DNA of 64,000 nt, from NCBI GenBank assembly GCA_029547705.1, contig JAKPOU010000068.1, positions 1 to 64,000 on the forward strand, in the 5' to 3' direction. Position numbers and translations under genes: made by a program. The number at the start of each line of letters is the position of its first letter. Positions within the stretch are counted from its first letter, which is position 1. A model generated the notes under the pieces. That model did not search any database. It saw nothing but the letters and a program-made list of their open reading frames with translations, and was not told the origin of the DNA. The stretch is from Bacteroidota bacterium. GTDB lineage: Bacteria; Bacteroidota; Bacteroidia; Bacteroidales; VadinHA17. Of this stretch, positions 1 through 18,557 are shown piece by piece.

Positions 1-122
1 GCCGTTTTATCGTAAACGGATTTTACGCCATAAAGGTAATACCGTCCGTTGATCAGTTTCAGTTCTGTCCGGGGCCTCTTGTGTTTCAAAGCCCAATCGG
101 GGTGGTTTGCCGTTGTTTTCAT
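1..122 (-). CDS. IS transposase, N-terminal fragment (runs off window)
   Basis: The reverse strand encodes 40 residues from an ATG at 122 and is open to the window edge. The start reads MKTTANHPDWALKHKR and continues with LINGRYYLYGVKSVYDKT. The pattern HPxWALKHK, then INGxYYLY, then a basic segment is the N-terminus I associate with IS1634-like (IS4-superfamily) DDE transposases; this is recall, not a search. The catalytic domain lies outside the window, so intactness is unknown. It borders the AT-rich accessory island. Confidence 0.55.
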   Translation of the reverse strand, partial: MKTTANHPDWALKHKRPRTELKLINGRYYLYGVKSVYDKT

Positions 123-273
123 CGATTTTCTTTTATTATAATCATTACCTAAATAGGTAATACTAAATAACAACAAAAAAACCACACAAACAAATATTCA
201 TGCGGTTTTTTTCATTTTTCTATTCCCTATTTATTTAGGGTTTGGGATTAATCATATTTTTTAGTTTATACCT
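123..273. other. AT-rich IS flank with short inverted repeats
   Basis: This non-coding stretch lies between the transposase start and the next small gene. It holds a 6-bp stem with a 4-base loop at 145-160 (ttacct/aggtaa), an A-run/T-run hairpin at about 174-213 that could end transcription either way, and a short stem at 225-240 (ccct/aggg). The right end of the insertion sequence should lie here, but its terminal repeat cannot be fixed without the other end. Confidence 0.35.
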
Positions 274-450
274 ATGAGAAAAACATTACTGATATTCTTC
301 TTAATCATTTTTGCAGCAATCTTAGTGGTGAAGTCAATCATATTTAAAGACGTAATTTCCATAAAGAGTATTGCTCTAATTGGTATTGCCAGCATTGTAT
401 CTACTTTATTGTTTTGGGTAATATATACTCAGTTTTCGAGACGAAAATAA
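274..450 (+). CDS. Small hydrophobic membrane protein, 58 aa
   Basis: An ATG at 274 opens a 58-codon frame ending in TAA at 448-450. The product starts MRKTLLIFFLIIFAAILVV and has a second hydrophobic segment near residues 34-50, followed by a basic tail (SRRK). Two transmembrane helices are likely. I do not recognise a family. The positions of the basic residues and helices look like a real membrane protein rather than a random frame. It sits between the IS fragment and a large inverted repeat, an arrangement resembling a small gene cassette. Confidence 0.5.
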   Translation: MRKTLLIFFLIIFAAILVVKSIIFKDVISIKSIALIGIASIVSTLLFWVIYTQFSRRK

Positions 451-598
451 AACCTGCCCATCACAGTATATAATTCATAACGGGGCTTGTGGAAGTTTAA
501 AAATATGTGCTACTATCAAGCCCCTTGCCATGCTGGTGCGAAGTCACGTTGAACTCTGCCACAAATTATATACTCATTCATTAAGTTAAATTGACTCA
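451..598. repeat. Imperfect inverted repeat, attC-like, about 110 bp
   Basis: An outer perfect 11-bp inverted repeat pairs 465-475 (agtatataatt) with 564-574. An inner perfect 8-bp repeat pairs 482-489 (ggggcttg) with 517-524. An alternative 6-bp pair exists (487-492 with 559-564). A GTTGAAC, which fits the integron core GTTRRRY, lies at 549-555. The element directly follows a very small gene, as attC sites do, but the spacing of the arms is not canonical, so attC identity is only a possibility. No gene is seen here. Confidence 0.4.
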
Positions 599-649
599 AT
601 GATAGAAAATAATAAACGTAATATTTTCCTGACTCTTTTTTCCGGTTAA
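599..649 (+). pseudogene. 3' remnant of an ABC permease gene
   Basis: The frame ending at the TAA at 647-649 reads NKRNIFLTLFSG. It matches the last residues of the intact permease at 4605-5933 (NERNIFPTLFSA), and the similarity continues at nucleotide level past both stop codons. The rest of the permease gene is absent here. I read this as the broken end of an upstream copy of the repeated cassette. An ATG at 599 would give only a 16-residue peptide. Confidence 0.6.
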
Positions 650-922
650 TTTATTTCATTCACTGATCTTTCTTATAAGAATATATTTGACAGAGGATAT
701 TTTAAAGGTCTTCCGGAAATGGACTCCATGTCACGGCATTAGATAACAGAAATAAAATTTTCAGGTTACACTGTAAGGTTTTTAATGGAAAAATGTTCTG
801 GTCCGGTATTATTGGACTTGGCTTATTTATTTTTCGAATGCAGATGTAATTGTGTATATTAGATCTGCGGGCGGTAACCGAAAAGCCTGAAGAGAGTAGG
901 TGACAATTTCATTGTTATTCTT
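650..922 (+). promoter_or_regulatory. Cassette A upstream leader, with stretch identical to cassette C
   Basis: The region after the permease remnant is homologous to 5934-6150. Positions 841-867 are identical over 27 bp to 6071-6097. That block contains TATATTAG, one mismatch from the Bacteroidota -7 box TAnnTTTG, and is followed in both copies, and in the weaker copy at 3305-3360, by a gagag element. Conservation through an otherwise decayed region suggests the promoter and 5' leader of the peptide gene. Confidence 0.5.
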
Positions 923-1117
923 ATGACAGAGCTTAGTTTAGAACAAATGGAAAGCGTTGCAGGTGGTTTTAAAATGCCCTGTGGAGCTGCGCTGGCATTG
1001 TATGGAGTAGCATTTATAGGACTTTGTGCTTCTACAGGAGGCGCAGCTATTTGTGCTGCAGTAACTTTTGGTGCATCAATTTATGATGTTTATGCTGCTT
1101 GTTACCGGATGAAGTAA
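923..1117 (+). CDS. Double-glycine-leader bacteriocin-like peptide precursor
   Basis: The 64-residue product has a very short leader ending in a double glycine (SLEQMESVAGG, cleavage expected after Gly15). The core is about 49 residues, hydrophobic and rich in Gly and Ala, with four cysteines (Cys20, 35, 44, 60). This is the plan of class II-type bacteriocins and other peptides trimmed by peptidase-containing ABC exporters. No C39-peptidase exporter is in the window, so processing would need one elsewhere. Downstream are a 15-bp hairpin and then membrane/ABC genes that could give immunity or export. Bacteriocin activity is inference; the leader motif is seen. Confidence 0.65.
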   Translation: MTELSLEQMESVAGGFKMPCGAALALYGVAFIGLCASTGGAAICAAVTFGASIYDVYAACYRMK

Positions 1118-1130
1118 TTTCGCTCTTTTC

Positions 1131-1186
1131 AATTCAATGGTATCCGGTTATTAAATTTATAGGGATACCATTGAATTATTTTTAAC
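1131..1186 (+). terminator. Strong hairpin after the peptide gene (attenuator/terminator)
   Basis: A perfect 15-bp stem pairs 1131-1145 with 1163-1177 around a 17-base loop and is followed by attttt. It lies between the peptide gene and the downstream membrane/ABC genes. It probably ends most transcripts after the peptide, giving more peptide mRNA than transporter mRNA. Confidence 0.7.
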
Positions 1187-1195
1187 TTATTTGTG

Positions 1196-1879
1196 ATGAA
1201 TTTAAAACATAGACTTTCAAAAATTATTCTGTCATTTTCTTCTGTACTTATTTTAATCCAAACTTTCTTTTTGGCGGAAAAAGACATTTGGGCGGCGGAC
1301 TTATTTTATTATTTACCTTTTTTTAGTTTAGTAATAATCTTGGATTTTATGCTGTATGAAATTAGCTGCCCTGATTACAAAGGCTGTAATCATCTAGTGT
1401 TTTGTACATTTCCAGTGTCAAGAAGATCAATATTCATTATGGAAATTAGCTATTACCTAAAAAGGTGGGAATTGTATATTTTTGTAATATCAATTTTAAT
1501 TTACCTGTCTTATTTTTATTTCCTGAACAACACCCTAGTTTTCCCGCTTATATTAATTCTTATTCTTTATATTTTCCAGATTACATATTTGATATTTCTA
1601 CTTTTTTTCATAAAGAATTTATTTAAAATAAAAAATTTGGAATTAAACGTGAGAAATTTCTCCACGATTTTAATATCTTTTATTATTCTGCTATATTCAT
1701 TTGCTGACAAATCAAAAGCGCTTGAGTTTGTATTTTATAATAATCCTTTCTGCTGTGGATTTTTATCCTACTTGTTAGAAAAAAAATATGCACTTACTTC
1801 GTTTAGTCTGATTATTTCAGTTTCCGGATTGTTGTATTTATTTGGAAAAAACAAAATTAATGAATGGTCTCTTTTTTAA
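1196..1879 (+). CDS. ABC-type membrane subunit-like protein, 227 aa
   Basis: Nearly the whole protein is hydrophobic, with about six predicted transmembrane stretches. It carries a CTFPVSRRSIF segment like the short cytoplasmic turn of ABC-2 type permeases. A GTG at 1193 is in frame, but the ATG at 1196 is the better start. It overlaps the next membrane gene by 16 bp and is followed by an ABC ATPase, so the three likely form one transporter. At 227 residues it is about half a usual permease, and the next gene may supply the other half. GC content is very low. Confidence 0.6.
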   Translation: MNLKHRLSKIILSFSSVLILIQTFFLAEKDIWAADLFYYLPFFSLVIILDFMLYEISCPDYKGCNHLVFCTFPVSRRSIFIMEISYYLKRWELYIFVISILIYLSYFYFLNNTLVFPLILILILYIFQITYLIFLLFFIKNLFKIKNLELNVRNFSTILISFIILLYSFADKSKALEFVFYNNPFCCGFLSYLLEKKYALTSFSLIISVSGLLYLFGKNKINEWSLF

Positions 1880-2427
1880 CCACTCTTAAGTTTGCTTTAA
1901 GCTTTTATTGGGTAACAGCCAAACATATTTTAATTTTAATTATTTCCAGTTGGATTCTGTATTTCATCAATATAAATGATGAGATAATTAATTTTTTATT
2001 AATTAACTTGTTTGTGCTAAATATTATTTTAATTTACTCTTTATTTAAGAAAGATAAACTGCTGAAATTAAATGGATTTTATTGCTTATTTAATATTTCA
2101 GAAATAAAAATATTTTTTTCAAAGTCATTAATATTCGGTATACCTTTAATAATTCATTTCTCGACAATTTTATTATTTAAATTCAAAATAGAATCTCAAT
2201 TATATCTAACCATAATTTCAATAATACTTCTGTTTTTTTTAACAAAGTTGATATTTGTTGATGAGCACCTTAGACTGCTCAGAATATTTTATTTTACTTT
2301 TTTTTCGTTCACGATCTTGTTAAGTTACATTTTGTCAGGATTGTTCTTGATGTTAATAATCTTTTGGATATTAATATCCTATTTTATTTTTTTGGTAATT
2401 AAATTGAGCCGTGAAGAGAGAGGTTAG
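1864..2427 (+). CDS. Membrane protein, probable ABC transporter partner, 187 aa
   Basis: A 187-residue, almost entirely hydrophobic protein with about five or six predicted membrane segments and a basic end (SREERG). It starts inside the preceding gene and ends 2 bp before the ATPase gene, which implies translational coupling. I recognise no family. With the preceding 227-residue protein it may form a split permease for the ATPase at 2430. A frameshifted single ancestral permease is possible, but both frames keep clean hydrophobic patterns. Confidence 0.55.
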   Translation: MVSFLTTLKFALSFYWVTAKHILILIISSWILYFININDEIINFLLINLFVLNIILIYSLFKKDKLLKLNGFYCLFNISEIKIFFSKSLIFGIPLIIHFSTILLFKFKIESQLYLTIISIILLFFLTKLIFVDEHLRLLRIFYFTFFSFTILLSYILSGLFLMLIIFWILISYFIFLVIKLSREERG

Positions 2428-2429
2428 CC

Positions 2430-3179
2430 ATGGAAGAAATAATTAATTTTAATTCAGTTATTAAAAGATATGGGAAAATAACAGCACTCAATGGCTTGTC
2501 ATTCTCTATTAAAAAAGGAGAATCAGTTGGATTGATTGGTAACAATGGATGTGGTAAAACTACCACAATAAATGTCTTATGTAACCTAGTCAATTATGAT
2601 AGTGGTAATGTTTTAATTTATGGTAATAAAATAATTCCTGGTTTTGTCACCTATAAAAATAAACTAGGCATTTTGTTGAGTCCCCCGATTTTTGTAAATG
2701 AATTTACTCCTATTCAATATTTAAAATTTGTCTGCAAATTTCAAAAAGTTGATCAATTTGAAATAGACCTTAGAATAGAAAGCTTGATTAAATCATTTAA
2801 CTTAAATTCTTTCAACAAGAAAAAGATCGGAGACTTTTCGTCTGGAGATAAAATGAAAATAGCATTAGCTGCTGCTATTATACATAATCCTGAAGTTCTG
2901 GTGTTTGATGAACCATTTATTCATCTTGATTTCCAAACTATCGACTTCATCTCATCCTTAATCAAATCTTTAAGAAATAAAAAGACCTTATTTATTACCT
3001 CTCATAATATAGACCTTATGACTAATTTATGTAGCCGATTTCTGATTATGGATCATGGTCAAATTATTAATGACATTGCTTTGCATGAAAATATGTCCCA
3101 CAATGAAATAAAAAGCCTAATCACAGACAGTATCCTGAAACAAAATATTAGAAGTATTAATATGGACTGGTTTGAATAA
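2430..3179 (+). CDS. ABC transporter ATP-binding protein (cassette A)
   Basis: The 249-residue ATPase has Walker A GNNGCGKTTT, a divergent signature FSSGDKMK, Walker B LVFDEP and the H-loop TSHN. All ATP-hydrolysis elements are therefore present. Its size and single nucleotide-binding domain fit ABC-2 type exporters of the kind used for bacteriocin self-protection or drug efflux. It is the last gene of the unit starting with the peptide at 923, 2 bp behind its likely permease partner. The substrate is not visible; self-immunity is inferred from context. Confidence 0.85.
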   Translation: MEEIINFNSVIKRYGKITALNGLSFSIKKGESVGLIGNNGCGKTTTINVLCNLVNYDSGNVLIYGNKIIPGFVTYKNKLGILLSPPIFVNEFTPIQYLKFVCKFQKVDQFEIDLRIESLIKSFNLNSFNKKKIGDFSSGDKMKIALAAAIIHNPEVLVFDEPFIHLDFQTIDFISSLIKSLRNKKTLFITSHNIDLMTNLCSRFLIMDHGQIINDIALHENMSHNEIKSLITDSILKQNIRSINMDWFE

Positions 3180-3449
3180 GGTTTTCATGCATTGCAAAAA
3201 TCAATCATTTGCAAGGAGGTAATGAGTCAATCTTTGAGCGCCAAATACTTCATTTTTATGACTACTTGTTATCAATTAATAACTCCTCTTTTTCGTTACA
3301 GATAAAATACTATATATTAAATCTGTTCGTATAAACCAGGAAATTTGAAGAGAGTAAACATCTTTATGGTGAAACTATGGAAAAACAATCGGTTATGAAA
3401 ATATGCTTCACTATCAAATTAGTGGCAGAAAAGATATGAAAGATAATTG
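3180..3449 (+). promoter_or_regulatory. Cassette B leader region
   Basis: There is no gene here. A TATATATTAAATCTG block at 3311-3325 and a following gaagagagtaaa match the leader of cassettes A and C in order and spacing, though less closely. I read it as a diverged third copy of the leader/promoter preceding a decayed peptide gene. Confidence 0.4.
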
Positions 3450-3673
3450 GCAAGTGGGATATTGTCAGCAGACCCGGGAACAATATATTTTAGCCTTTGC
3501 GAAGTCGTTATAATTGTCTGTTCGAAGATTGCTGAAGCTATTTGCATTATGAAAAGAATCGATGCCGAAAATTTTTATGAAATGAGACCCGTAAAGATGC
3601 CTAAGCACAAGTTGCTTAATTAGGCTGTGTGGTAGCAAGTTTATTTGCAGGATTTGCCAATCCCTTTTTTTGA
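3450..3673 (+). pseudogene. Decayed peptide gene(s) of cassette B
   Basis: An open frame without a start codon runs from 3450 to the TAG at 3621-3623 and contains SGILSADPGTIYF and later KIAEAICIM. A different frame at 3623-3673 reads GCVVASLFAGFANPFF. Both segments resemble the remnant in cassette C (SSGIPFADPANIF, EIAETIFIM). The position, between the leader block and a hairpin ahead of an ABC gene, matches the intact peptide of cassette A. It is likely the remains of one or two peptide precursors; the alignment was by eye. Confidence 0.4.
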
Positions 3674-3762
3674 CTATGACCGGGATACACTTATCCTTTC
3701 TTTGTTTAACGAGACAAATGATTTAAGTTTATTAGTGATTTTGTTTCCGAGGTTGTATTCTG

Positions 3763-3803
3763 CACATAAGCTCCATAATGACTGAATAAGTGGAACTTAT
3801 GTG
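3763..3803 (+). terminator. Hairpin before the cassette B ABC genes
   Basis: A 13-bp stem with one mismatch pairs 3763-3775 (cacataagctcca) with 3791-3803 around a 15-base loop. The following T-run is weak. It occupies the same place as the strong hairpin of cassette A. Confidence 0.45.
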
Positions 3804-3825
3804 TTTGACAAAATAATTATTTAAT

Positions 3826-4563
3826 ATGATAAGCCTTAAGTCTGTTAATAAATCATTCAATGGTAATTCAGTACTGGAGGATATAAATCTCAGCCTGGAG
3901 AGAGCTCAGGTTTACTGCCTTTTAGGCAGGAACGGAGCCGGTAAAACAACTATACTGAATCTTATCCTGGATTTACTCACACCAGACAGTGGTCTGATAG
4001 AAGTCCTGAACAAACCCGGTAATAAACTTGACAATCAAAGTAAGGCAAGAATTGGGGTTTTAAGGGAAGATCTGGCAGTCATAAATGAATTAACCGGATT
4101 TGATTATCTTACTCTGACCGGTCATTTCTACAATATGTCAGGAATAGCAGCAGATCATAAAATCAGCGAGCTGGCAGATTATTTTTTTGATGAAAAGGAA
4201 GTAGAGCTTAAAAAGAGGATTGGGACGTATTCATTTGGCATGAAAAAGAAAGTTGCAATTATTGCAGCACTAATAAATGAACCTGATCTGTTAATTTTGG
4301 ATGAACCATTTGCTGGTCTGGACCCGGTTTCTGCTAAAAGACTCGTTACTTATCTGAAAAATTATATCAGTCCTGAAAGATTGATTTTGCTGTCCTCACA
4401 TAACCTGAATTATATAAAACAGATTTCAACCCATATAGGGATTGTCCATAAAAAGAGACTCTTTTTAGATTCTAAAATCAATGATTTTCCCGTTCGGGAA
4501 GGAGAGTCCTTTGAAGATGCGTTTTGCAGGTTAATTGAAACTGAAATTGAAACTGAAATTTAA
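3826..4563 (+). CDS. ABC transporter ATP-binding protein (cassette B)
   Basis: A 245-residue ATPase with Walker A GRNGAGKTT, signature YSFGMKKK, Walker B LILDEP and H-loop SSHN, so it should be catalytically competent. The C-terminus ends in a repeated ETEIETEI made by a short DNA repeat that runs on past the stop codon. It sits 41 bp before a 442-residue permease and probably powers it. An ABC-2 type export or immunity role is inferred from the architecture and its place in the peptide island. Confidence 0.85.
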   Translation: MISLKSVNKSFNGNSVLEDINLSLERAQVYCLLGRNGAGKTTILNLILDLLTPDSGLIEVLNKPGNKLDNQSKARIGVLREDLAVINELTGFDYLTLTGHFYNMSGIAADHKISELADYFFDEKEVELKKRIGTYSFGMKKKVAIIAALINEPDLLILDEPFAGLDPVSAKRLVTYLKNYISPERLILLSSHNLNYIKQISTHIGIVHKKRLFLDSKINDFPVREGESFEDAFCRLIETEIETEI

Positions 4564-4578
4564 ACTGAAACTGAATAA
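4535..4578 (+). repeat. Short tandem repeat across a stop codon
   Basis: Units of the type attgaaactgaa repeat through the end of the ATPase gene, over its TAA at 4561-4563 and a little beyond. The repeat encodes alternating Glu-Thr/Ile. Slippage here could lengthen or shorten the protein tail. Confidence 0.6.
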
Positions 4579-4604
4579 ATCCGTTCCGGCTAAACTGAAA
4601 AATA

Positions 4605-5933
4605 ATGTGGCAGATTTTTAAATTGTTATTGAGGAACTTCTCTGATTTATACAAATCCAGGCAATTATATAAAATAATTGTCTTTTTCTCTTCTTCAGTA
4701 TTACTTGGTCTTCTGGCAGGTTATTTACTTAATACAGCAAATGATGGATTACTGGTAAAAGGCTCAGATGAGTCAATAGTATATTTATTAGCGGGACTTT
4801 TCATGCTTCCATTCATAAGAATTGTATTGCCGGCATATAAGCCGCTGAGAAGGATAGTACTACATTATCATCCTGTTTCAAGTTTCAATAAAATGATTAT
4901 AAATCTTTTTATTGACATGTTATCGGGTTTCTTCATTTTCTTGTTTATTTTTCTTCTGACAATAACCATTATTTCCAAAGATTTTAATTTAAAGCTTTTA
5001 ATACAGGGTTATTTACTTATTATTACGTCACATCTTTTCCGGAGGATATTTCAGAATATTATTGAGAACAGATATGATTTAAGGTCATCTGTAACGATGG
5101 CTTTACTGATTATCCTGGTTTTTTCAATTTCGTTTTTCAAACGCCCTTATATGCCGTCGAACTTTGACTGGGCACTGATGATTTCGGGGCTTTCAGTTTT
5201 TCTTCTGTTTTTTATAGAGAGTAAAACCCCGGGACAAAACAGAAGCTTTCTGCATCTGAAGAAATCCACTGTGAAGAATATTTTCTGGCAATTTTTATTT
5301 TATAACAGGGCCGTCAGATTGTCTTTGATTATTGGATTAACCCTGAAGATCGTCTTTTTTATCACGGATATGTTTTTTGTCAGGCATACAGGACGTCATA
5401 TTTTAGACGGCAATTTATTATACTGGATTTTAATAGCTGCTCCCACTATTCATTTCTCATATGTGTTTAATAACCTTTGGGGCCATTATCGTATTTTGTG
5501 GCTGCAATTAAGGATTCATTCAGGGAATGACTGGAAAGAATATCTGAATATTTTTTATAAACTGATTTCAATACCGCTTGTTATAGATATGGTTATTTCA
5601 TTGGTATTTCTTTTAATACTATGGAATGATAAATTATTCGTTATATCCTTTTATTTGGTTTCTCTGTTTTTCTTAAGCTGCTTTTCTTTCTACTGGTCAT
5701 TTGTCAGTCCTGCTTATGCCACCGATTCTGCAGTTTTCAAAATAGCTCATTCCCCGAAAGGCAATTTTATTTGTCTGCTTGGTACAGGTTTACTCTATCT
5801 GATGAAAATTGACTCATGGTTTTATATGCTTATTCCGTTTTATATATTTCTATCAGTTTTATTTATCCTGAAAATAAAGTCTGACTTAGAAAAAAATGAA
5901 CGTAATATTTTCCCGACTCTTTTTTCCGCTTAA
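4605..5933 (+). CDS. ABC-type permease, 442 aa (cassette B)
   Basis: A hydrophobic protein with about ten predicted membrane segments. A central FSYVFNNLWG is paralleled by FTYLFNNFFG in the 452-residue permease at 9295, so the two are homologous. It follows an ABC ATPase and is taken as its membrane partner. Its last codons and the sequence after them are duplicated at 599-760, which marks the border of the repeated cassette. I do not know its substrate or a precise family name. Confidence 0.65.
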   Translation: MWQIFKLLLRNFSDLYKSRQLYKIIVFFSSSVLLGLLAGYLLNTANDGLLVKGSDESIVYLLAGLFMLPFIRIVLPAYKPLRRIVLHYHPVSSFNKMIINLFIDMLSGFFIFLFIFLLTITIISKDFNLKLLIQGYLLIITSHLFRRIFQNIIENRYDLRSSVTMALLIILVFSISFFKRPYMPSNFDWALMISGLSVFLLFFIESKTPGQNRSFLHLKKSTVKNIFWQFLFYNRAVRLSLIIGLTLKIVFFITDMFFVRHTGRHILDGNLLYWILIAAPTIHFSYVFNNLWGHYRILWLQLRIHSGNDWKEYLNIFYKLISIPLVIDMVISLVFLLILWNDKLFVISFYLVSLFFLSCFSFYWSFVSPAYATDSAVFKIAHSPKGNFICLLGTGLLYLMKIDSWFYMLIPFYIFLSVLFILKIKSDLEKNERNIFPTLFSA

Positions 5934-6224
5934 TTGATTTCATTCACTGTTCTTTCTGACAGAATATCATATGGCAGAACATATTTTCAGGATCTTCTGA
6001 AAAAAGGCTCCGGGCCCTTGAATTTTATTAATCCGGCAGCACCGGACTGGTATTTTGTATTTTCCGGATACAGATGTAATTGTGTATATTAGATCTGTAA
6101 TCAGGAAACGAAAACCTGTAGAGAGAAATTAGTTTCTTTGCTGTTCTTAGGAAGGAGTTTGGATTGAATCAAACAGAACCCCTCTTTGTAAGTGATTGAT
6201 TTAACTTTCATTCACGAAGGGAAG
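5934..6224 (+). promoter_or_regulatory. Cassette C leader region
   Basis: The stretch matches 650-920 in order, including 27 identical bases at 6071-6097 with the -7-like TATATTAG, then a gagagaaa element. In cassette A the equivalent site precedes an intact peptide gene. Here it precedes a decayed one. Confidence 0.5.
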
Positions 6225-6368
6225 CTCTTACTTGCATGGGTATGGGGCACTGGTATCATCGGGAATTCCGTTTGCAGATCCGGCAAATATATTTTTCTGC
6301 TGCATGAGATTGCAGAAACGATTTTCATCATGGAGGGGGATACCTGGTATTTTTCGGCAAACCGTTAA
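6225..6368 (+). pseudogene. Decayed peptide gene of cassette C
   Basis: One frame reads ALVSSGIPFADPANIF and, after a one-base shift, another continues with EIAETIFIMEGDTWYF and ends at the TAA at 6366-6368. Similar pieces occur in cassette B at 3450-3673. There is no intact start or double-glycine leader. It probably was a short secreted-peptide gene. Assignment is by eye and by position between the leader block and the ABC genes. Confidence 0.4.
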
Positions 6369-6398
6369 GGTGTTTGTCTTTTTAATGTAAAACAAGTC

Positions 6399-7865
6399 AT
6401 GCTAACAGAGGTTATAAAGCACTCAATAAAAAGCTTTCTCAGAAATACCACATTTGACCTGAGATTAATATTGAGGTTGCTTATGATCCTCTCCATATTA
6501 TATCTTTTTTCTTTCCTGGTCTATCTGGGTTATGGTTTTTCTGGTTTCTTATACTTGTACAGCCCTTCATCTGATCCGGTTACATTCCTTAATAACAGGT
6601 TATTACATATAGGTGCGGTTCTGTTTATCCTGCAGGTTTTTTCTATTAAAAATCCACTGAAAGCACTGCTGGCTTATTTACACTTACCGATTAAAAGAAA
6701 CAAGCTGGTATTGTATATACTTTTTCTGTCACAGTTCAATTATTTTTTTATCGGATTGTTATTGTTTTTTGTTCCATATTCAATCAGGACGATTCTTCCG
6801 GTTTACAGTATCCAGCAGTTTTTCTTCTATTTTCCCGGAGTTTTAATAATATTTTTTTCGGTCGGGTATTTCAGTTTGCTGATCAGGAATTTAATCGGGA
6901 TCTCTTATAGTTATATAATTATACCCATACTTCTGTTTGGAGGCCTTTACTTAATGGATCTTTTCCTGGATATTTCTTTTAAAGACATGTCCCGTTTCAT
7001 CTTTAAGCAACTCATTAACAAAAATCTATATTTTCTGATATTACTGATTTTAATACTTGCAGGATTATTAATCTGCAATTTCATTTTATTGAAAAAGGGC
7101 TTTTATGGTATTTATCAAAATCAAAAATCCTTGTTGAATTATTCATTCAGACCTGCCAGTCATTATTTTAGAGAAAATGATTTATTTACATATGTCCTTC
7201 TGGAAATCCGGCTTATTGCAAGAAACAGGCGGACAAGAGGTTTTTTGCTGATAATTTTATTCTTCTCAATTATGTTTTACAGAATTCTCCCTTATGATGG
7301 CAATCTGTATGTTATTTTCATACTTTTCATTCTTATAAGCGGGATGTTTGGCTATACTTTTATTCAGTTTTTATTTTCATGGGAAAGCGGATACTTTGAT
7401 TTTATCTTATCGACAAAATTCGATATCATTAAATATTTAAAGGCAAAATATGCAGTATATTCAATTTTTAGTGTAATTCTATTCACAGTTTATTTTCCTG
7501 TGATAAAACCGGTTCAGACCGGATTACATATGTTTTTCTCGGCATTATTGTATAATTCCAGCCTTGGATACTTTGTTCTTATTTTCCTGGCAACCTATAA
7601 TAAATTCAAAGTTGATCCGAACCGAAGTATTTTGTTTAATTATCAGGGATTAAACAGTTTCCAGGTAATAGGGGTATTGTTAGTTCTGCTGATACCAATT
7701 CTGACCCTGTTTCTTTTGCTGCTCCGGCTAAATTTAACTCATAGCCTCCTTATTATTAACTTATTATGTATTATTGCCTTAATCATTCAGGGTAAGCTCT
7801 GGAAAATTATTCAAAATAAATTAATGCGGAGGAAGTATATAAATCTTGAAGGATACAGGAAATGA
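6399..7865 (+). CDS. DUF5687-like ABC permease, 488 aa
   Basis: About a dozen predicted membrane segments. A conserved-looking FSWESGYFDFIL followed by YLKAKYAVYS recalls the DUF5687 family of Bacteroidota membrane proteins that pair with ABC ATPases. It overlaps the next ATPase gene by 4 bp (ATGA), so the two are translated together. The remaining pair (8599 ATPase, 9295 permease) follows at once, so cassette C encodes two transporters or one four-part complex. The role in peptide immunity or export is inferred from context. Confidence 0.65.
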   Translation: MLTEVIKHSIKSFLRNTTFDLRLILRLLMILSILYLFSFLVYLGYGFSGFLYLYSPSSDPVTFLNNRLLHIGAVLFILQVFSIKNPLKALLAYLHLPIKRNKLVLYILFLSQFNYFFIGLLLFFVPYSIRTILPVYSIQQFFFYFPGVLIIFFSVGYFSLLIRNLIGISYSYIIIPILLFGGLYLMDLFLDISFKDMSRFIFKQLINKNLYFLILLILILAGLLICNFILLKKGFYGIYQNQKSLLNYSFRPASHYFRENDLFTYVLLEIRLIARNRRTRGFLLIILFFSIMFYRILPYDGNLYVIFILFILISGMFGYTFIQFLFSWESGYFDFILSTKFDIIKYLKAKYAVYSIFSVILFTVYFPVIKPVQTGLHMFFSALLYNSSLGYFVLIFLATYNKFKVDPNRSILFNYQGLNSFQVIGVLLVLLIPILTLFLLLLRLNLTHSLLIINLLCIIALIIQGKLWKIIQNKLMRRKYINLEGYRK

Positions 7866-8572
7866 TCAAAGCAGAGAATCTTTTAAAAAAATTCGGAAAC
7901 ACGATTGCCGTGGATATTCCGGAATTATCAATTGAAAACGGGGATATATGGGGGCTTGTTGGAAATAACGGGGCAGGTAAAACAACTTTCTTAAGATTAA
8001 TGGTTGATCTGCTGAAACCTGACAGGGGTCAGATACTTTCAAAATCGATTCCGGTTTACCAGTCGGAACATTGGAAAAATTATACGGGCACTTTTATTGA
8101 TAATAATTTTCTTATCGAGTTCCTGACACCTAAGGAATATTTTGAGTTCATTGCAAAAATCTATGATTTAGAAAAAAATGAATATTACGAGAGGCTGCAG
8201 GGCTATAATCATTTTCTTAATTCCGAAATATCAGAAACTTCCAAATATATCAGACAGTTATCATCCGGGGAGAAGCATAAGGTAGGTGTTATCGGCGCTC
8301 TTCTCCCGGATCCTGAAGTACTGATACTGGATGAACCTTTTAATTTCCTGGATCCCAGTTCGCAGATCGTATTAAATAAGATACTGAATTCGGGATTCCG
8401 GGATAAAAACAAAACGCTTATTCTTTCCAGCCATAATCTGAATCACATATCTGATATATGCACCCGTGTTGCTTTGATGGAAAAGGGTAAAATAATAAGA
8501 GATCTTCAAAACAACAGAGAATCAATGTCAGAGGTTGAGGATTATTTCAGGTATCAGACAAATAATCAATAA
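7862..8572 (+). CDS. ABC transporter ATP-binding protein (cassette C, first)
   Basis: A 236-residue ATPase with Walker A GNNGAGKTTF, signature LSSGEKHK, Walker B LILDEP and H-loop SSHN. It starts inside the stop of the 488-residue permease, its evident partner. All hydrolysis residues are present, in contrast with the ATPase that follows at 8599. It resembles the other ABC-2 type ATPases of the island, consistent with duplication. Confidence 0.85.
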   Translation: MIKAENLLKKFGNTIAVDIPELSIENGDIWGLVGNNGAGKTTFLRLMVDLLKPDRGQILSKSIPVYQSEHWKNYTGTFIDNNFLIEFLTPKEYFEFIAKIYDLEKNEYYERLQGYNHFLNSEISETSKYIRQLSSGEKHKVGVIGALLPDPEVLILDEPFNFLDPSSQIVLNKILNSGFRDKNKTLILSSHNLNHISDICTRVALMEKGKIIRDLQNNRESMSEVEDYFRYQTNNQ

Positions 8573-8598
8573 TTGCTGTTTTTTAGAATTGCCTGTAA

Positions 8599-9285
8599 AT
8601 GATTGTACTTCAGAAAGTATATAAAAGTTACAAAGACAAGAAAGTATTAATAAATCTGGATTTATCAGTTGAAAGAGGTCAGATTTTTGGACTGACAGGT
8701 AAGAACGGTTCCGGGAAAACAAGCCTGCTGAAAATAATATGCGGCCTGGAAAAACCAGACTCAGGAAATGTTCGCATTATAAACAATACAACCGGAAAAC
8801 CCGTGATCGGGGTATCTTTATATGAAACCAGCCAGCTGATTAATGAACTTGACGGTTATACATTTCTGAATTTCATAGGCCGGATATATAAGATCCCCTT
8901 ATTTGAGACTGAAAAAAGAATTCTGGAATTAAGCGACATTTTTGAGTTTTCTGATGTTCTGTATAAACCGATAGGGTCATATTCCACAGGTACCAGGAAG
9001 AAAATGTCAATATGCACTGCAATTTTTCACAAGCCACAATTATTATTGCTGGATGAACCTTTTGAAAACCTCGATGCCACAGCCTGTCGGAAACTCATAA
9101 CATTGCTGAAAGCATACATTTCCCCGGAAAAAACAATTATCATTACCTCCGGTCAGACAGGTCATTTACAGCAGCTTACAAATAATATAGCTGTATTGTC
9201 AAATGGGAGAATCACGGATCTTCATGCAGATCCCGGATTTCAGAAGATTGGCGGGGGAAATAAGATTCTGCCGGAAACGGAATAA
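8599..9285 (+). CDS. ABC ATP-binding protein with altered H-loop (cassette C, second)
   Basis: A 228-residue ATPase with Walker A GKNGSGKTSL, signature YSTGTRKK and Walker B LLLDEP. Where its neighbours have SSHN, it has ITSGQTGH: the switch histidine that senses the gamma-phosphate is missing from its usual place. It may hydrolyse ATP weakly, or act as the degenerate half of a heterodimer with the intact ATPase at 7862. It lies 9 bp before the 452-residue permease. Confidence 0.8.
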   Translation: MIVLQKVYKSYKDKKVLINLDLSVERGQIFGLTGKNGSGKTSLLKIICGLEKPDSGNVRIINNTTGKPVIGVSLYETSQLINELDGYTFLNFIGRIYKIPLFETEKRILELSDIFEFSDVLYKPIGSYSTGTRKKMSICTAIFHKPQLLLLDEPFENLDATACRKLITLLKAYISPEKTIIITSGQTGHLQQLTNNIAVLSNGRITDLHADPGFQKIGGGNKILPETE

Positions 9286-9294
9286 ATTGCCGAA

Positions 9295-10653
9295 ATGAAT
9301 TTCATTTTTTATTTCATAAAAGTCCGGTTTAAGCTCCTGTTCCGGAATTGTGGAAGACGCAGACAAAAACTGATTTTCTTTCTTGCATTTCCTGCTTTTC
9401 TGCTTTATGCCTTTTTCTTGAGTAATTATATGGACAGGCTGGCAGACAGGGGAATAATACAGTGGGAGGATATTTTTGTCTTTCTATATTCGGGTGCTTC
9501 AATCCTGGCTTTAATATCCTTTTTCTTTCCTGAATATAAATCATGTAAAGAACCCTTCAGCAAAATTTATCCCATAAATAATTTTACAAGAGCCCTGACC
9601 GGCCTTATCAGTGATTGTATGTCGCGGTTCATTATTATACTCGCGGCTGTTATCCTGATTTCGGCCTTGTTCTTTAAAGTTCCCTTTCCCGGCAGGATGC
9701 GTTATGCGGGCTGCTTATTGACAGGAGTGCTCAACGCTGTTATTTTAAGCAGGAATCTAAGGTTTCTTGTTGAAAAAGACTTCTATAAAAGCATCCACAG
9801 AATACCGGGCTGGCTTTTAATGGTGATAATTTACACGGTTTTTCTGTTTTTCATATTCAGATACATTGATTCTGTAATTTTCAATGTTTTGACAGTTGTT
9901 GCCGGTTTTGGACTACAGCTTGTTCTTAATAAGTGGACTTATGACAGGAGGATATCTGATCGCGGATCGCATCTGCCGTTTGTAATTCAGTTGTACATCA
10001 GGAATAAAATCTTCCGTGTTTCTGTTCTGATAATGTTTGCCGTTAAAATAATTATAATTCTCTTCTTTTTCCTGCTCCTGGAAATTGATCCTGATGCGAA
10101 CACTGCCTTTAAGATCCCGGTAGTTTTTTACAGTTCTCCGGTTCTGGTTTTTACATATTTATTCAATAATTTTTTCGGTTTCTTCCCGGCTTTCATTACC
10201 AATTTTAAAATTTCCGGTACAGAATATGATTCCCTGACCGGACTTTTGCTTAAAACTGTTCTTCCGCTGATTCTCCTTGACTTCCTGCTGTCTTTTGCTT
10301 TTATTTTTTACGGCAGGTATGATTTGCAGGCATGGCTGCTCTTTTATTTTTCAGTGCTGACAGTGCTCATTCCGGTTTCATTGCATCTTAGTACATTCTG
10401 GCCAAATCCGGTTAAAGCAGCATTTTCATCTTCCAATAACCGCCCCATGTTAAACAGCTTTTCTATGATTCCTGTACTGGCAGCCTCAGTCTGCTACCTG
10501 TATTTTCAGTCCCTTCTCCCGGTGATATTTCTGTTGTATTTCACCATTTCGGTTTTTACAGCACGTTCATTTATAGCAAGATATAAAAAGAATTTTCCGC
10601 ATCCCTGCATACATTATCTGTTTCAGGCTGCGGAAATATTACCCGGGATCTGA
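9295..10653 (+). CDS. ABC-type permease, 452 aa (cassette C)
   Basis: An integral membrane protein with about ten predicted helices. It shares the FTYLFNNFFG segment and overall layout with the 4605-5933 permease (FSYVFNNLWG). It starts 9 bp after the ATPase at 8599 and ends the island; GC content rises downstream. Convergent terminator hairpins follow. The substrate is unknown. Confidence 0.65.
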   Translation: MNFIFYFIKVRFKLLFRNCGRRRQKLIFFLAFPAFLLYAFFLSNYMDRLADRGIIQWEDIFVFLYSGASILALISFFFPEYKSCKEPFSKIYPINNFTRALTGLISDCMSRFIIILAAVILISALFFKVPFPGRMRYAGCLLTGVLNAVILSRNLRFLVEKDFYKSIHRIPGWLLMVIIYTVFLFFIFRYIDSVIFNVLTVVAGFGLQLVLNKWTYDRRISDRGSHLPFVIQLYIRNKIFRVSVLIMFAVKIIIILFFFLLLEIDPDANTAFKIPVVFYSSPVLVFTYLFNNFFGFFPAFITNFKISGTEYDSLTGLLLKTVLPLILLDFLLSFAFIFYGRYDLQAWLLFYFSVLTVLIPVSLHLSTFWPNPVKAAFSSSNNRPMLNSFSMIPVLAASVCYLYFQSLLPVIFLLYFTISVFTARSFIARYKKNFPHPCIHYLFQAAEILPGI

Positions 10654-14533: not shown

Positions 14534-14764
14534 TCAGACAGCTCGTTTTATATCCTGATCCATATCATTTTCAAGGATATAGGTATTCCCTCCATGCCAG
14601 AATACTATCCCGTAACCCTCAAGCTTTAATTCGCTTATCATCCGCTTTATACTTCTTTCGCTTACGCCGAATCTGCCGGCCAGATCTGCCGGAGTGCCAG
14701 CAGCCCTTAATCTGATCAGGTTCAGGATGCTGTCTTTTGTCAGTTCTCTTTTCTTTTTTGTCAT
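14534..14764 (-). CDS. Small helix-turn-helix regulator
   Basis: A 76-residue protein with a winged HTH of the HTH_11/DeoR type: SILNLIRLRAAGTPADLAG leads into FGVSERSIKRMISEL, the recognition helix, then a short wing (GIVFWHGGNTYIL). There is no ligand-binding or sensor domain, so it is DNA-binding only. The ATG at 14764 was chosen because the longer form needs a TTG at 14803 next to a -7-like TAAATTTA. Upstream repeats of TATTCGAAAA may be its operators. Confidence 0.75.
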   Translation of the reverse strand: MTKKKRELTKDSILNLIRLRAAGTPADLAGRFGVSERSIKRMISELKLEGYGIVFWHGGNTYILENDMDQDIKRAV

Positions 14765-14774
14765 ATTATTAATG

Positions 14775-14882
14775 TTTTCGAATAATATGACATTGCCTTT
14801 CAATTCTAAATTTACATAAATAAATCAGGAGCATGTCAATATTCGGAAAAAAATTAAAAAATTCGATTTTTATATTCGAAAA
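14775..14882. promoter_or_regulatory. Repeated TATTCGAAAA-like sites, possible operators
   Basis: The motif occurs as TTTTCGAATA at 14775-14784 (reverse), TATTCGGAAAA at 14840-14850, ATTCGATTTT at 14861-14870 and TATTCGAAAA at 14873-14882. They lie just upstream of the HTH gene start on its coding strand. Self-regulation is an inference from position. Confidence 0.35.
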
Positions 14883-15086
14883 ATTCTCAGGGAAAAACAA
14901 TATTTCATTACCTGACAACATATTTATTCCACTTGTCCGGCTTTGATAGAGGAAAAAGCCCGTAAGCCGGTTTCAGATTTACTGTTTAATATGCACAGCA
15001 GCTGATTTGTTACCTTGTAATGGCAGAATTTTTAGATTTTCTGCAGGAAACTGTCCCGCCGGCCGCAAAGACAGGCATGGGACTTT
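14883..15086. other. Intergenic stretch with a weak hairpin
   Basis: No gene is seen between the putative operators and the stop of the nucleotidyltransferase gene. A 6-bp hairpin at 15023-15044 (gcagaa/ttctgc) could help end the minus-strand operon that finishes at 15087. Confidence 0.35.
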
Positions 15087-16256
15087 CTAACCGATCAGGT
15101 ACCACAGTTTCCCCAGTCTCAGGGGATAGTACATAAGAGTTTCCAGCCTGCTCCTGCAGGCGTACCTGTTTTTCATAAATTCAAAGGAAGGGAAAAGGTC
15201 ACCGGCGATAAACAGGAGTTTACGGTGAAATCCGGGTATTTCACCCAGATGGTAACGGTAAAGCCGGGCCCTGCTTACAGGAGGATTATTCCCGGGACTT
15301 TTCAGGAAAAACAGGAATTTATCCAGTGAATCCGGAGCAGCCCATTCGTCAATGAAATTATTGATGTCATCAGGAAAGGAGATTTCAAGAACATCTCTCA
15401 AAGGTCTGAGCCTGGTTGCCATGATCTCATTCATTCCGGCCTTTTCGCAAAGTCCCGTAAGCGAGGGTCCGAGAATCTCCCCGTGATATTTTTCTATCAG
15501 AACCACCAGATCGGCATAAAGCCTTAGCTGGGATTCATTTTTCATCTCGTGAAGCCAGAGATGCCTTACCAGATAGGCAAAGAACATAAGGGGGGAAGGA
15601 ATGTATGCCTTTTCACCGCCCAGATCCTTTTCAGGACTCTCATCGTAAAGCTTGCGGGTGAGGCAGGAATTTTTTTTTCCGAAAAGTCCGGTATGGATCT
15701 CAACCGAAAGACCTTCAGCTGACAGACTCGGCAGATGCTTTCCTGAACAGGTGAGAAGCGGCTTGTACAATACAGATTTCAGGGGCTTTGACACGAATCC
15801 GTTTTCAATAAGGACCTGCCTGGCTGCCAGGGCATTCTCCGGTGAAACAAGTATGTCAACATCGGTCATCTGTCTGACTCCGGAATTTCCGTAAACCGTT
15901 AATTCCAGTGCAAGCCCCTTGAGCAGGACCGTTTTTATATTCCGGCTGTTCAGAAGTTTAAGGACAGGGGGCATTTTAACAAGAAAACCCGAATTCCTTG
16001 ACAGATTGATCATGTATGAATTCCGCAGGCTGCCTGTCACAGCAGGAGGGATAAGATCAGTCAGGCCAAGTCTGTTGCTGTTGTGGTATACCAGCGCTGA
16101 AACCCCATGGTTTCGTGCCAGTGACAGGAAATAATCCCAGTCATTTGTATTCCCGATGCAGCTTTTAAGCTTTTCAGTCTGCGCACTGCTGAATGACAGC
16201 CGGCAAAGTCCGCATAACAGCTGTTCTTCCGTTCTCAGGTTCAGGGATTCTGTCAT
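15087..16256 (-). CDS. NTP_transf_5 family nucleotidyltransferase
   Basis: A 389-residue protein of the Pfam NTP_transf_5 type. The signature is VLLKGLALELTVYGN followed by RQMTDVDILV, where the two aspartates of TDVDILV are the metal-binding nucleotidyltransferase residues. Members are known beside lasso-peptide and other RiPP genes, where their target is poorly defined. It overlaps the ABC exporter gene by 4 bp and is last in the operon that begins with the PqqD-like gene. Nucleotidylation of a peptide is inference only. Confidence 0.8.
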   Translation of the reverse strand: MTESLNLRTEEQLLCGLCRLSFSSAQTEKLKSCIGNTNDWDYFLSLARNHGVSALVYHNSNRLGLTDLIPPAVTGSLRNSYMINLSRNSGFLVKMPPVLKLLNSRNIKTVLLKGLALELTVYGNSGVRQMTDVDILVSPENALAARQVLIENGFVSKPLKSVLYKPLLTCSGKHLPSLSAEGLSVEIHTGLFGKKNSCLTRKLYDESPEKDLGGEKAYIPSPLMFFAYLVRHLWLHEMKNESQLRLYADLVVLIEKYHGEILGPSLTGLCEKAGMNEIMATRLRPLRDVLEISFPDDINNFIDEWAAPDSLDKFLFFLKSPGNNPPVSRARLYRYHLGEIPGFHRKLLFIAGDLFPSFEFMKNRYACRSRLETLMYYPLRLGKLWYLIG

Positions 16257-18040
16257 CTCCGGAATCTGCTTGTCTGTTTTGTGTACATGCTGTGGTATAT
16301 GCCTTTTTTCTCCATCAGTTCATCATGAGTTCCGCTTTCCGCGATACTTCCCTTACTGAGTACTATTATCCGGTCGGCAAGACTCACATTTATAAACCTG
16401 TGACTTATAAGTATTGATGTCCGTCCGCTTACTATCTCTCTGAAGCGGCTGAATATTTCATATTCGGTATCCGCGTCAAGGGAACTGGAGGGTTCATCAA
16501 GAATAAGCAGGGGCGCATCCCTGAAAAGAGCCCTTGAAATAGCAAGCTTCTGCCATTCCCCCCAGCTCAGTTCCCGGCTGTCGCTGAAAAGATTTCCTAT
16601 CACCGTGGAATACCCATCCGGAAGATCATTTATCAGGTCATGAATACCGGTCATCCTGGCAGCCTTTATGATGTCTTCCGGAGCATCTGATTTCGAAATG
16701 TTTCCAAGGCGGATGTTTTCTCCCGCACCCAGATTATAGAGCATGAAATCCTGGAAGACCACTGAAAGAAGTTTCCTGTACTGACCGGGATCAAGGTTTT
16801 TCAGATCCTTTCCGTCAATGCTTATCGATCCAGAATCCGGATCATATAATCTGCAAAGCAGTCTGACCAGAGTCGTTTTCCCTGCACCGTTCGGTCCGAC
16901 AACAGCTACCACCTCTCCTTTCCTGATGCTGAAGGATACATCCTTGATTGTGTGGGAGTTATTCCCCGGGTATGTGAAGGAGATGTTGTTCACACTGATA
17001 CCGGAGCTGAATTCCCGGATATCAGCGACAGGCGGAATGGCTTTAATTTTTTCTTCAAGATTCAGGAATTCAAAAATATCCCCTATGAAGAGTGAATCTT
17101 CATACAGACCGGCAAGTGAACCGAGAAGTTCCCTGATGTACATCATCCCCTGCCGGAATGCCAGGACGAACATGGTCATGTGTCCCAGTGTGAGTTTTCC
17201 TCCGGTCGTTTCCCTTGCCATGAATACCAGGGTAATCATCACGGCAGCTGCCTTGACCAGGTCGGATACCAGTTCAATAGCCGTTCTTTTCCTGATTATC
17301 CTTATCTCTTCCTCCTTTGTTCTGAGAAAGGACTTTTTGAACAATGCGGTAAAATAGTTTCCCAGGCCGAAAAGCCTTATTTCCCTTGACGGGCGGTCAC
17401 CCGTTAGGAGCCAGTTGAAATAGGCAGCCTTCCTGGCTTCAGGGGTCTGTTCACGCTGGAAATTGTAGAGAGTGCCGGCATACTTCAGCCTGAGCCATAT
17501 TCCCGGAATGTTTACCACAACAAGCAGCAGTGCCACGGCCCAGTGAAGGACAACCAGCACTCCTGCCATCAGCAGAAGGGAAAGTAGGCTCCGGAACAGC
17601 GATACGATATTGTTGAGTATGCTGTTCGGTCTCCAGGGAGCTTCCCTGGAAGCTCTTGAAAGAGAATCGAAATAAGCGGAATACTCGAAATTCAGCAGAT
17701 CGAGCCTCACGGACTTCGAATGGATGAGTCCGTACATGTAGATTTCCAGTTTCATCGACTGTTTCTTGCGGACATAATTCCCCAGGTCCGACGTGGCTTC
17801 ATCAACAAACCAGATAATTACAACTGCGGCAATGAGCCATATGATTGACGGCAGGACTTCAGGGGAATTCAGCGACACAGCCTTCGTGAGCTCATCAACG
17901 AGGTTTTTCAGCAGCCAGATGAGAAGAAGGGGCAGGATACTCCTCAGGACTGAAAGCATTATGTTGGCAAAGGTCCAGCCCGGAGCACTTTGCCAGACCA
18001 GTTTCAGCGATTCCCGGAAATATTTGAATTTGTTATTCAT
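16253..18040 (-). CDS. ABC exporter (fused membrane and ATPase domains)
   Basis: A 595-residue half-transporter. About six membrane segments in residues 15-320 precede an ATPase domain with Walker A GPNGAGKTTL, Q-loop VVFQDFML, Walker B LLILDEPSSSLD and H-loop ISHRF. The signature is LSWGEWQK rather than LSGGQ; an SxGEWQ form is usual for some peptide exporters. No C39 peptidase domain is present. The ATG at 18040 was preferred to the one at 18061, which lies further inside the preceding gene. It is the likely exporter for the product of this PqqD/HprK/S26 operon. Confidence 0.88.
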   Translation of the reverse strand: MNNKFKYFRESLKLVWQSAPGWTFANIMLSVLRSILPLLLIWLLKNLVDELTKAVSLNSPEVLPSIIWLIAAVVIIWFVDEATSDLGNYVRKKQSMKLEIYMYGLIHSKSVRLDLLNFEYSAYFDSLSRASREAPWRPNSILNNIVSLFRSLLSLLLMAGVLVVLHWAVALLLVVVNIPGIWLRLKYAGTLYNFQREQTPEARKAAYFNWLLTGDRPSREIRLFGLGNYFTALFKKSFLRTKEEEIRIIRKRTAIELVSDLVKAAAVMITLVFMARETTGGKLTLGHMTMFVLAFRQGMMYIRELLGSLAGLYEDSLFIGDIFEFLNLEEKIKAIPPVADIREFSSGISVNNISFTYPGNNSHTIKDVSFSIRKGEVVAVVGPNGAGKTTLVRLLCRLYDPDSGSISIDGKDLKNLDPGQYRKLLSVVFQDFMLYNLGAGENIRLGNISKSDAPEDIIKAARMTGIHDLINDLPDGYSTVIGNLFSDSRELSWGEWQKLAISRALFRDAPLLILDEPSSSLDADTEYEIFSRFREIVSGRTSILISHRFINVSLADRIIVLSKGSIAESGTHDELMEKKGIYHSMYTKQTSRFRR

Positions 18041-18557
18041 TAGACCCTGATGCTTTTGCAAAGATAGCAGACAGATTATTTGTAAGATGTTTTATTCCGC
18101 TTATAAACCTTACAATTATCCGGTTAAGCGGATAAGCCGGTTTTTTCCTAAGCTGATCTCCCTTTTTTATCCTGTTCTTCCTGTCTTCTGTCCGGATTAC
18201 CTTCCCTGCTATCTGTTCACCCGTTACAGGACTGTCTTCATGTCTGCAACTGTCACCCCTTGTGTAATAAAGAATTTCATTCCCCCTTTCTTCTGTTCTT
18301 ATCAGACGGTGAACAACAAATCCCTGTGCTCTTTTCCATGCAATGATATCTCCGGGAACAATATCCTTCATATTCTCCTTCGGACTGATGAGAATGGTGG
18401 TTCCGGGCTTTATGGATGGGTACATGCTGTAGCCGCCGGCCCTTATCCTGAGAATCCTGCCTTCCGAGAGAAGCGAAAAGCCAAGATCCCTTGCAATTTT
18501 ATGGTCATTACCGCTCTTTTCCATATGCTTCCCGTGCTCTTTTTCAGCCTGATTCAT
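18033..18557 (-). CDS. S24/S26-type peptidase, SipW-like (S26B)
   Basis: A 174-residue protein with the signal-peptidase boxes GGYSMYPSIKPG (Ser44 nucleophile), GDIIAWKR and VVHRLIR (His83), then TRGDSCRHED. Ser plus His instead of Ser plus Lys is the S26B (SipW/ER) type. There is no N-terminal membrane anchor, which is unusual for a signal peptidase. Together with PqqD-like and HprK-like genes it suggests a peptide-maturation protease. It overlaps the genes on both sides. Confidence 0.8.
   Translation of the reverse strand: MNQAEKEHGKHMEKSGNDHKIARDLGFSLLSEGRILRIRAGGYSMYPSIKPGTTILISPKENMKDIVPGDIIAWKRAQGFVVHRLIRTEERGNEILYYTRGDSCRHEDSPVTGEQIAGKVIRTEDRKNRIKKGDQLRKKPAYPLNRIIVRFISGIKHLTNNLSAIFAKASGSNE

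Follow-up and report, generated by a model that had tools for sequence, protein, structure and literature searches.

Bacteroidetocins are double-glycine peptides which, in the part of the published description available (Coyne 2019, PMC6671954), have a leader of 15–16 amino acids (aa) ending in Gly-Gly (GG) and a mature part of 42–53 aa with at least two and typically four cysteines, and are encoded in loci of four genes for a protein with five transmembrane (TM) segments, the peptide, a thiol oxidoreductase and a C39-type ATP-binding cassette (ABC) transporter. As far as that part of the report goes, the loci studied were without an evident immunity gene and the producers inhibit themselves. 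LanFEG and CprABC, as described in the available part of a second source (PMC5786555), consist of one ATPase and two different permeases, mostly of six TM segments each, and expel the peptide from the membrane. For two further components of the present locus, the DUF805b RNA (RF02914) and the DUF5687 protein family (PF18940, to which Pfam assigns no function), no paper on the function of the former and none naming the latter was found in the literature searched, which left most subscription papers outside. Here we describe three adjoining sets of peptide and ABC transporter genes, cassettes A, B and C, in a Bacteroidota bacterium of the order Bacteroidales (assembly GCA_029547705.1). They lie at positions 1–10653 of the stretch of DNA analysed (the window), which covers the opening 64 kb of contig C59 (206 kb; JAKPOU010000068.1) in a draft genome of 3.78 Mb and 70 contigs. 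With a probability of roughly two in three (0.66), we read them as cassettes for bacteroidetocin-like bacteriocins that carry LanFEG-like ABC immunity, B and C having decayed to immunity-only units.

The region had previously been read from its letters alone (the sequence-only reading) as an AT-rich island with three related units of leader, short peptide gene and ABC transporter genes, and that observation was borne out as a whole, its interpretation only in part. GC content is 0.28–0.36 across 1–10653 against 0.475 across the remaining window. The unit of a peptide gene followed by ABC genes is intact in A, and likewise in congeners; the predicted loss of the peptide in two copies is firm for B and probable for C, and the transporter reading frames are intact in all three cassettes (Table 1). 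The proposed order of leader, peptide, hairpin and transporter holds for A and B; in C the fold between the peptide relic and the ABC genes is weak, and the hairpin could not be upheld there. The assembly is a draft, in which segments could be hidden or misplaced.

Judged by the described features of bacteroidetocins, peptide A is a small double-glycine peptide of similar make-up: its leader, MTELSLEQMESVAGG, is 15 aa long and ends in GG, and its mature part of 49 aa carries 4 Cys, all within the published ranges. With the exporter operon described below, these features liken to a published family an arrangement that the sequence-only reading did not recognise as a named system. Relatives of the peptide are 77% identical in L132, a locus from a metagenome-assembled genome (MAG), and 75% identical in the congener G029. 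Cassette A is under purifying selection, with ratios of nonsynonymous to synonymous substitution (dN/dS) of 0.16 against L132 and 0.21 against G029 for the peptide, and of 0.15 against L132 for permease 1. Among 60 relatives searched with peptide A, G029 was the one congener with a clear relative, which is followed by the same three genes, and the DNA of cassette A is 69% identical to it over 2.2 kb. Weak matches in G057 and G040 (E 0.01–0.08) stand, by eye, among housekeeping-type genes and were dropped, and a plasmid search with peptide A gave no match. A scan of named genomes with permease A1 gave three loci, in MAGs labelled Bacteroidales or Bacteroidetes bacterium. The leader precedes all four A-type permease loci found (the window and 3/3 from the scan); three of the four, L132 not being among them, are training sequences of R1, a model of the whole leader (117 nucleotides, nt) built from eight sequences. 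In G070:C32 an A-type peptide frame is cut to 37 aa and three ABC genes are still open.

The exporter operon of this genome is found on contig C17. It encodes a 724-aa exporter with Peptidase_C39 (PF03412), ABC membrane (PF00664) and ABC ATPase (PF00005) domains, next to an AhpC/TSA-type protein with a CxxC motif, a 220-aa membrane protein and an 80-aa helix-turn-helix (HTH)-like protein (by eye), the last two without a Pfam match. A membrane protein, a thioredoxin-fold protein and a C39-ABC exporter are likewise encoded together in the bacteroidetocin loci as described; the domain scan of the operon covered the C17 proteins only, and the 220-aa membrane protein is a putative counterpart of the bacteroidetocin TM protein. 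The L132 locus encodes an HTH-like protein, then a membrane protein, a thioredoxin-fold protein and a C39-ABC exporter, followed by leader, peptide, hairpin and permease, at which point it stops (proteins named after their C17 counterparts), and this order recurs in G029, with the exporter operon directly before the leader, an A-type peptide and an A-type permease. The TM protein, thiol oxidoreductase and C39-ABC exporter are adjacent to the peptide in L132 and G029, and non-adjacent to it in the present assembly. The exporter is 89% identical to that of L132 with a dN/dS of 0.08, and a 776-aa protein adjoins the operon in both. Contig C17 begins inside a group II intron (Intron_gpII, Rfam match L113 582–655), with the end of the exporter gene about 1 kb away, so insertions may have separated cassette A from its exporter; that C17 and C59 adjoin is a guess. 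The locus differs from the bacteroidetocin loci described in that transporter genes of its own follow each peptide, whereas the published loci studied had no evident immunity gene, and in its DUF805b leader and the position of the peptide gene 3' of the exporter gene.

Those transporter genes are the basis for the proposed immunity. Cassette A resembles LanFEG and CprABC, as described, in having one ATPase and two different short permeases (249, 228 and 187 aa) beside a bacteriocin gene; this likeness is limited to A, as B and C have long permeases in place of two short ones. The lantibiotic protection family galliderm_ABC is within the ten best NCBIfam matches of all four ATPases, at 109–147 bits and so far below its cut-off of 309.75. 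No lantibiotic biosynthesis gene or lanthionine-forming enzyme was found among the ten region proteins and five C17 proteins scanned against Pfam, the rest of the genome being outside this search, and a PADLOC scan returned generic ATPase matches only. Hydropathy counts over-split helices and were used solely for calling proteins membrane proteins.

Under the bacteriocin and immunity reading, a cassette would be laid out as a terminator-like inverted repeat, a presumed promoter, a dyad, the DUF805b hairpin and, some 20 nt further on, a start codon, followed by the double-glycine peptide gene, a hairpin and a non-exporting ABC transporter. Peptide A would be a bacteroidetocin-like class II bacteriocin with presumed killing activity, trimmed past Gly-Gly and exported by the C39-ABC exporter of contig C17, and its disulphides would be introduced by the thioredoxin-fold protein whose gene neighbours that of the exporter. 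The short-permease ABC transporter, sharing a transcript with the peptide, would clear the latter from the envelope of the producing cell in the LanFEG/CprABC manner, and the hairpin could let the peptide be made in excess over the transporter. In B and C, where the peptides were lost and the transporters kept, the latter may give immunity against kin that still make those peptides.

Homology firmly points to the remains of a two-peptide pair in cassette B. By tblastx, 3447–3548 (41%) and 3584–3706 (54%) pair with two congener peptides, and the relic, all three frames of which carry stops, aligns with the intact congener pair at a score of 187.5, reached by 0/300 shuffles (maximum 106). In G070:C61 a B-type ATPase and permease pair follows the leader and two intact peptides, whose own leaders are of GG and AG type, and at E<=1e-5 the B permease was found, among 58 genus genomes, only in this genome and in G070. 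Silent sites of the B transporter are saturated against G070 (synonymous differences, pS, 0.77–0.80; nonsynonymous, pN, 0.25–0.32), a pattern which supports constraint since the split and does not prove constraint after the loss of the peptides.

Cassette C probably once held an A-like peptide gene. The peptide A gene was the only clear match to its relic among nine intact peptide genes, at a score reached by 0/300 shuffles; none of the other eight was convincing, the best (G029b) being reached by 20/300 shuffles, and the comparison with relic B scored 59 against a shuffle maximum of 71.5. The G029 relatives of the C DUF5687 permease and its ATPase adjoin another double-glycine peptide with the same leader.

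Leaders A and C are clearly homologous. All 27/27 nt of 841–867 are identical to 6071–6097, and self-BLAST aligned 603–727 with 5887–6011 (82.5% over 126 columns, E 2e-29) and 814–947 with 6044–6173 (73% over 134 columns, E 3e-15), so that the 27 identical bases and more than 200 bp of flanking similarity noted before amount to about 260 aligned bases at 73–83% identity. The third leader copy that had been listed, B, is weaker (self-BLAST E 0.36; R1 15.2 bits, E 0.46), yet its local alignment scores of 62 to A and 58.5 to C were each reached by 0/500 dinucleotide shuffles, and it appears to lie near the edge of detection. Used as a query against the whole genome, 602–920 gave 35 places, with E values under 0.1 confined to A itself and two C segments. 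The A block opens with the final codons of a permease gene of the B type (602–649; shuffle test 171 against a maximum of 56 of 200, with which the frame view agrees), and DNA like that found 3' of such a permease therefore now precedes A.

Several candidate signals in the leader were set aside. The inverted repeat at 800–818 was considered as an activator site at fixed spacing and dropped, as the terminator scan picks it out and repeats like it also stand ahead of some leaders beyond the genus. The dyad at 841–867 was considered as a DNA operator, and the distance between its arms, which varies from about 13 to 24 nt among copies (by eye), is easier to reconcile with an RNA loop than with a dimer site; changes that affect both members of a pair are too scarce for a decision. 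A promoter consensus, TTTG-N19-TAnnTTTG, was placed by eye at two positions on the alignment, neither of which suits every copy, and no start site is proposed. The motif GAGAGUAGGU was ruled out by eye as a Shine-Dalgarno sequence because of its wrong distance and an invariant mismatch.

Table 1. Features of the three cassettes, in window coordinates.
Feature	Position	Strand	Evidence and remarks
B-type permease gene, 3' end remnant	602..649	+	...KRNIFLTLFSG-stop vs ...ERNIFPTLFSA-stop at 5933; self-BLAST 82.5% over 126 columns
Terminator-like inverted repeat opening leader A	800..818	+	Terminator scan; alignment; stem conserved in L132, outer pairs altered (by eye)
Extended leader, cassette A	801..921	+	R1 110.2 bits; R1 training sequence
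27-base block with dyad symmetry (CAGAT...ATCTG)	841..867	+	Identical to 6071–6097
DUF805b RNA (RF02914)	868..902	+	37.4 bits vs gathering score 35.6
Intact double-glycine peptide A, 64 aa	923..1117	+	Leader 15 aa, mature 49 aa, 4 Cys
Hairpin between peptide and transporter genes, A	1131..1177	+	Stem at same place in G029; in L132 by eye
A permease 1, 228 aa	1193..1879	+	No Pfam match; 68, 54 and 47% identical to L132, L133 and L134
A permease 2, 187 aa	1864..2427	+	No Pfam match; G029 homologue 51% identical
A ABC ATPase, 249 aa	2430..3179	+	PF00005 1.5e-24
B leader, degraded	3297..3355	+	Self-BLAST, R1, shuffles
Relic of two-peptide pair, B	3376..3710	+	tblastx to L018 peptides; shuffle tests
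Hairpin before B transporter	3762..3804	+	Fold -18.0 kcal/mol for 3741–3825
B ABC ATPase, 245 aa	3826..4563	+	PF00005 6.4e-27; 60% identical to L018
B permease, 442 aa	4605..5933	+	No Pfam match; 49–50% identical to G070:C61
C leader	6031..6147	+	R1 33.6 bits, E 8.6e-5; not an R1 training sequence
Relic, probably of A-like peptide gene, C	6150..6390	+	74 vs shuffle maximum 65 of 300
C permease, DUF5687, 488 aa	6399..7865	+	PF18940 4.5e-63; 27% identical to G029 relative
C ABC ATPase 1, 236 aa	7862..8572	+	PF00005 1.7e-22; 47% identical to G029 relative
C ABC ATPase 2, B-like, 228 aa	8599..9285	+	39% identical to B ATPase
C permease 2, B-like, 452 aa	9295..10653	+	24% identical to B permease (pair alignment); BLASTP E 2e-6 over 108 residues

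Leader A passes the gathering score of the DUF805b RNA, with its GAAAA loop and GAGUAGG tail, and leaders B and C fall short of it; the difference from the described RNA is that the core here sits inside a longer leader before double-glycine-type peptides. Within the genus 52/60 genomes match the RNA at E<=0.01, 25 over the cut-off (controls: 2/14 genomes, none over the cut-off), and within the order 72/149 genomes match at E<=1e-7 (controls: 0/14). Two further matches are present in this genome, on C58 and C20. The next gene was read for 67 genus matches, namely the 65 best-scoring and two weaker ones, of which G070:C61 was added as already known, and for 76 of the best 80 order matches listed, the four left out including one from this genome. 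By eye, double-glycine-type peptides follow 12/67 genus matches (9 genomes) and 12/76 order matches (6 genomes), for which no enrichment is claimed, and are thus a recurring context for the RNA; the other 55/67 and 64/76 stand before outer-membrane-type, lipoprotein-type or other genes, or are without a frame (3 and 6). A start codon lies 15–25 nt past the core in 48/64 genus and 62/70 order matches with a frame (plain counts with no chance comparison), and from this narrow distance we infer a role for the RNA at or near the start of translation. Tandem elements were also seen by eye (L059, L070 and L068 among the genus loci), in which a second DUF805-like hairpin and GAGTA tail directly follows the first and the start codon is then 44–50 nt away. 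In L189 (G143:C104), four double-glycine precursor-like genes occupy some 2 kb, and every one of them has a DUF805b match of its own.

The extended leader is far more restricted than this core. R1 gave 17 matches in 14/60 genus genomes at E<=0.001, and the eight above 90 bits are its training set, comprising the window and seven others, all seven of which precede double-glycine-type peptides. L132, which was not used in training, scores 101.5 bits before its peptide, and above 90 bits the extended leader is confined to the genus and this one further MAG, with a double-glycine-type peptide following each. Three matches score 49–51 bits, those of G074 and G002 before double-glycine peptides and that of G060 running off its contig; six score 35–42 bits, with GG-type peptides next in G006 and G008, a 45-aa peptide in G066, other genes in G015 and G003, and no frame in G076. 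Outside the genus there were 11 matches of 41–56 bits in 10/198 order genomes, six before double-glycine precursor-like peptides, three before other genes and two without a frame. The mixed genes after the lower-scoring matches indicate that the core drives much of the match at low scores. The exact repeat and spacer pattern occurs at 3 places in 2/295 genomes, all before double-glycine-type peptides already known, and the reversed pattern at 2 places. The sequence-only reading had counted leader blocks before unrelated genes as a point that would tell against it; such blocks are common across genus and order as regards the 35-nt DUF805b core, and did not appear for the longer leader, either with 602–920 as query in the whole genome or with R1 above 90 bits.

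This distribution bears on the suggestion that the shared leader is merely a genus-wide DUF805b element of the 5' untranslated region, the three units being unrelated and B and C never having had peptides. The abundance of the core in genus and order, mostly before genes other than those for double-glycine-type peptides, is as this suggestion would have it, but the likeness of A and C extends well past the 35-nt core, and the longer stretch occurs nowhere else in the genome. The seven other high-scoring R1 matches of the genus also speak against it, with the proviso that all are training sequences, as does the non-training L132, and the homology of relic B to a real peptide pair largely refutes it for B; it is the least probable of the alternatives considered. 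A tandem duplication of a single peptide and transporter unit followed by divergence, which the sequence-only reading had favoured, would account for the B-type permease 3' end and leader upstream of both A and C, for the B-like second pair of C and for the resemblance of relic C to the peptide A gene above all others. It sits poorly with the transporters, which are of three types: two short permeases and an ATPase in A, an ATPase and a 442-aa permease in B, and a DUF5687 permease and ATPase plus the second, B-like pair in C. In congeners, relatives of each type occur singly, accompanied by a peptide and the same leader, and by pairwise identity the A ATPase is nearer to those of G029 and G070 (66 and 57%) than to those of B or C (25–32%); the B ATPase shares 28% identity with the A ATPase and 39% with ATPase 2 of C. 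Because the three transporter sets differ in type, the array is better read as accumulated cassettes, and we consider its origin by duplication of one unit quite improbable.

Accumulated cassettes could still serve another purpose, in which the peptides act as signals and each ABC transporter is dedicated to their export or import in place of immunity. ABC transporters beside small peptides can move signals, and the A permeases have no family assignment. Immunity is nonetheless favoured because a C39-ABC exporter, the usual partner of double-glycine peptides, already supplies export, being present in this genome and beside the cassette in L132 and G029, and because the transporter frames are intact where the peptides have decayed (B, C and G070:C32), which a dedicated carrier of the lost peptide would not explain. 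The signalling explanation is thus unlikely, if the least so of these alternatives.

A number of observations weigh against the bacteriocin and immunity reading itself. The cleavage site is GS in the L132 relative and AG in that of G029, not GG, and the matches of peptide A in Pfam and NCBIfam are sub-threshold only. The exporter is on another contig (C17) than the cassettes (C59), and relic C is weak and near the edge of detection. By analogy, an immunity transporter would not be expected, the bacteroidetocins that serve as the model family being described as self-inhibiting and without an evident immunity gene. An altered Q-loop residue (S, E or D) in the eight aligned cassette ATPases was rejected as a sign of immunity, since it is also present in the GldA-like (by eye) ATPase at 32123–33034, and structure prediction of two permeases gave a mean predicted local distance difference test score (pLDDT) of 40 and was not used.

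Other features were observed around the cassettes. At the contig end, a truncated frame at 3–185 (-) resembles the start of a transposase by eye and has no Pfam match, and an 11-bp perfect inverted repeat, AGTATATAATT, at 465–475/564–574 bounds about 90 bp (by eye). Beyond the cassettes, 14534–19909 (-) holds a set of genes like those for ribosomally synthesised and post-translationally modified peptides, including a PqqD-like small protein (19622–19909, by eye), a 335-aa HPr kinase-like protein (by eye, no Pfam match), a sub-threshold Peptidase_S24 match, an ABC transporter, an NTP_transf_5 protein and a small HTH-like protein (by eye). A set resembling it follows bacteriocin cassettes in G070:C32 and partly also in G074. 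A SAM-II riboswitch above the gathering score, at 32019–32078 (-), is directly upstream of an S-adenosylmethionine synthetase-like gene (30374–31717, by eye). Genes resembling metH and metF (names by eye) share a contig with the cassettes, at 25630–30246 in the window (15–20 kb off) and in G029 (L005 17926–20000, 1–2 kb off), and this is possibly a shared neighbourhood.

A further extension, which we put forward as tentative and would sooner doubt than accept, is that the shared leader, with its promoter and DUF805b hairpin, acts as a common socket at which recombination exchanges non-homologous bacteriocin and immunity cassettes. Peptides would then be lost and transporters kept, leaving an array of immunity-only units that records the bacteriocins once owned, and bacteroidetocin-type peptides would, in these transporters, have their first dedicated immunity systems. 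The transporters are candidate self-protection genes of a kind reported to be lacking in similar published peptide systems. If the ABC cassettes do protect, they would be candidates for how producers of bacteroidetocin-type peptides could survive, an idea that is directly testable, and the decay of the peptides in B and C suggests that it may pay to retain protection once the weapon has been lost.

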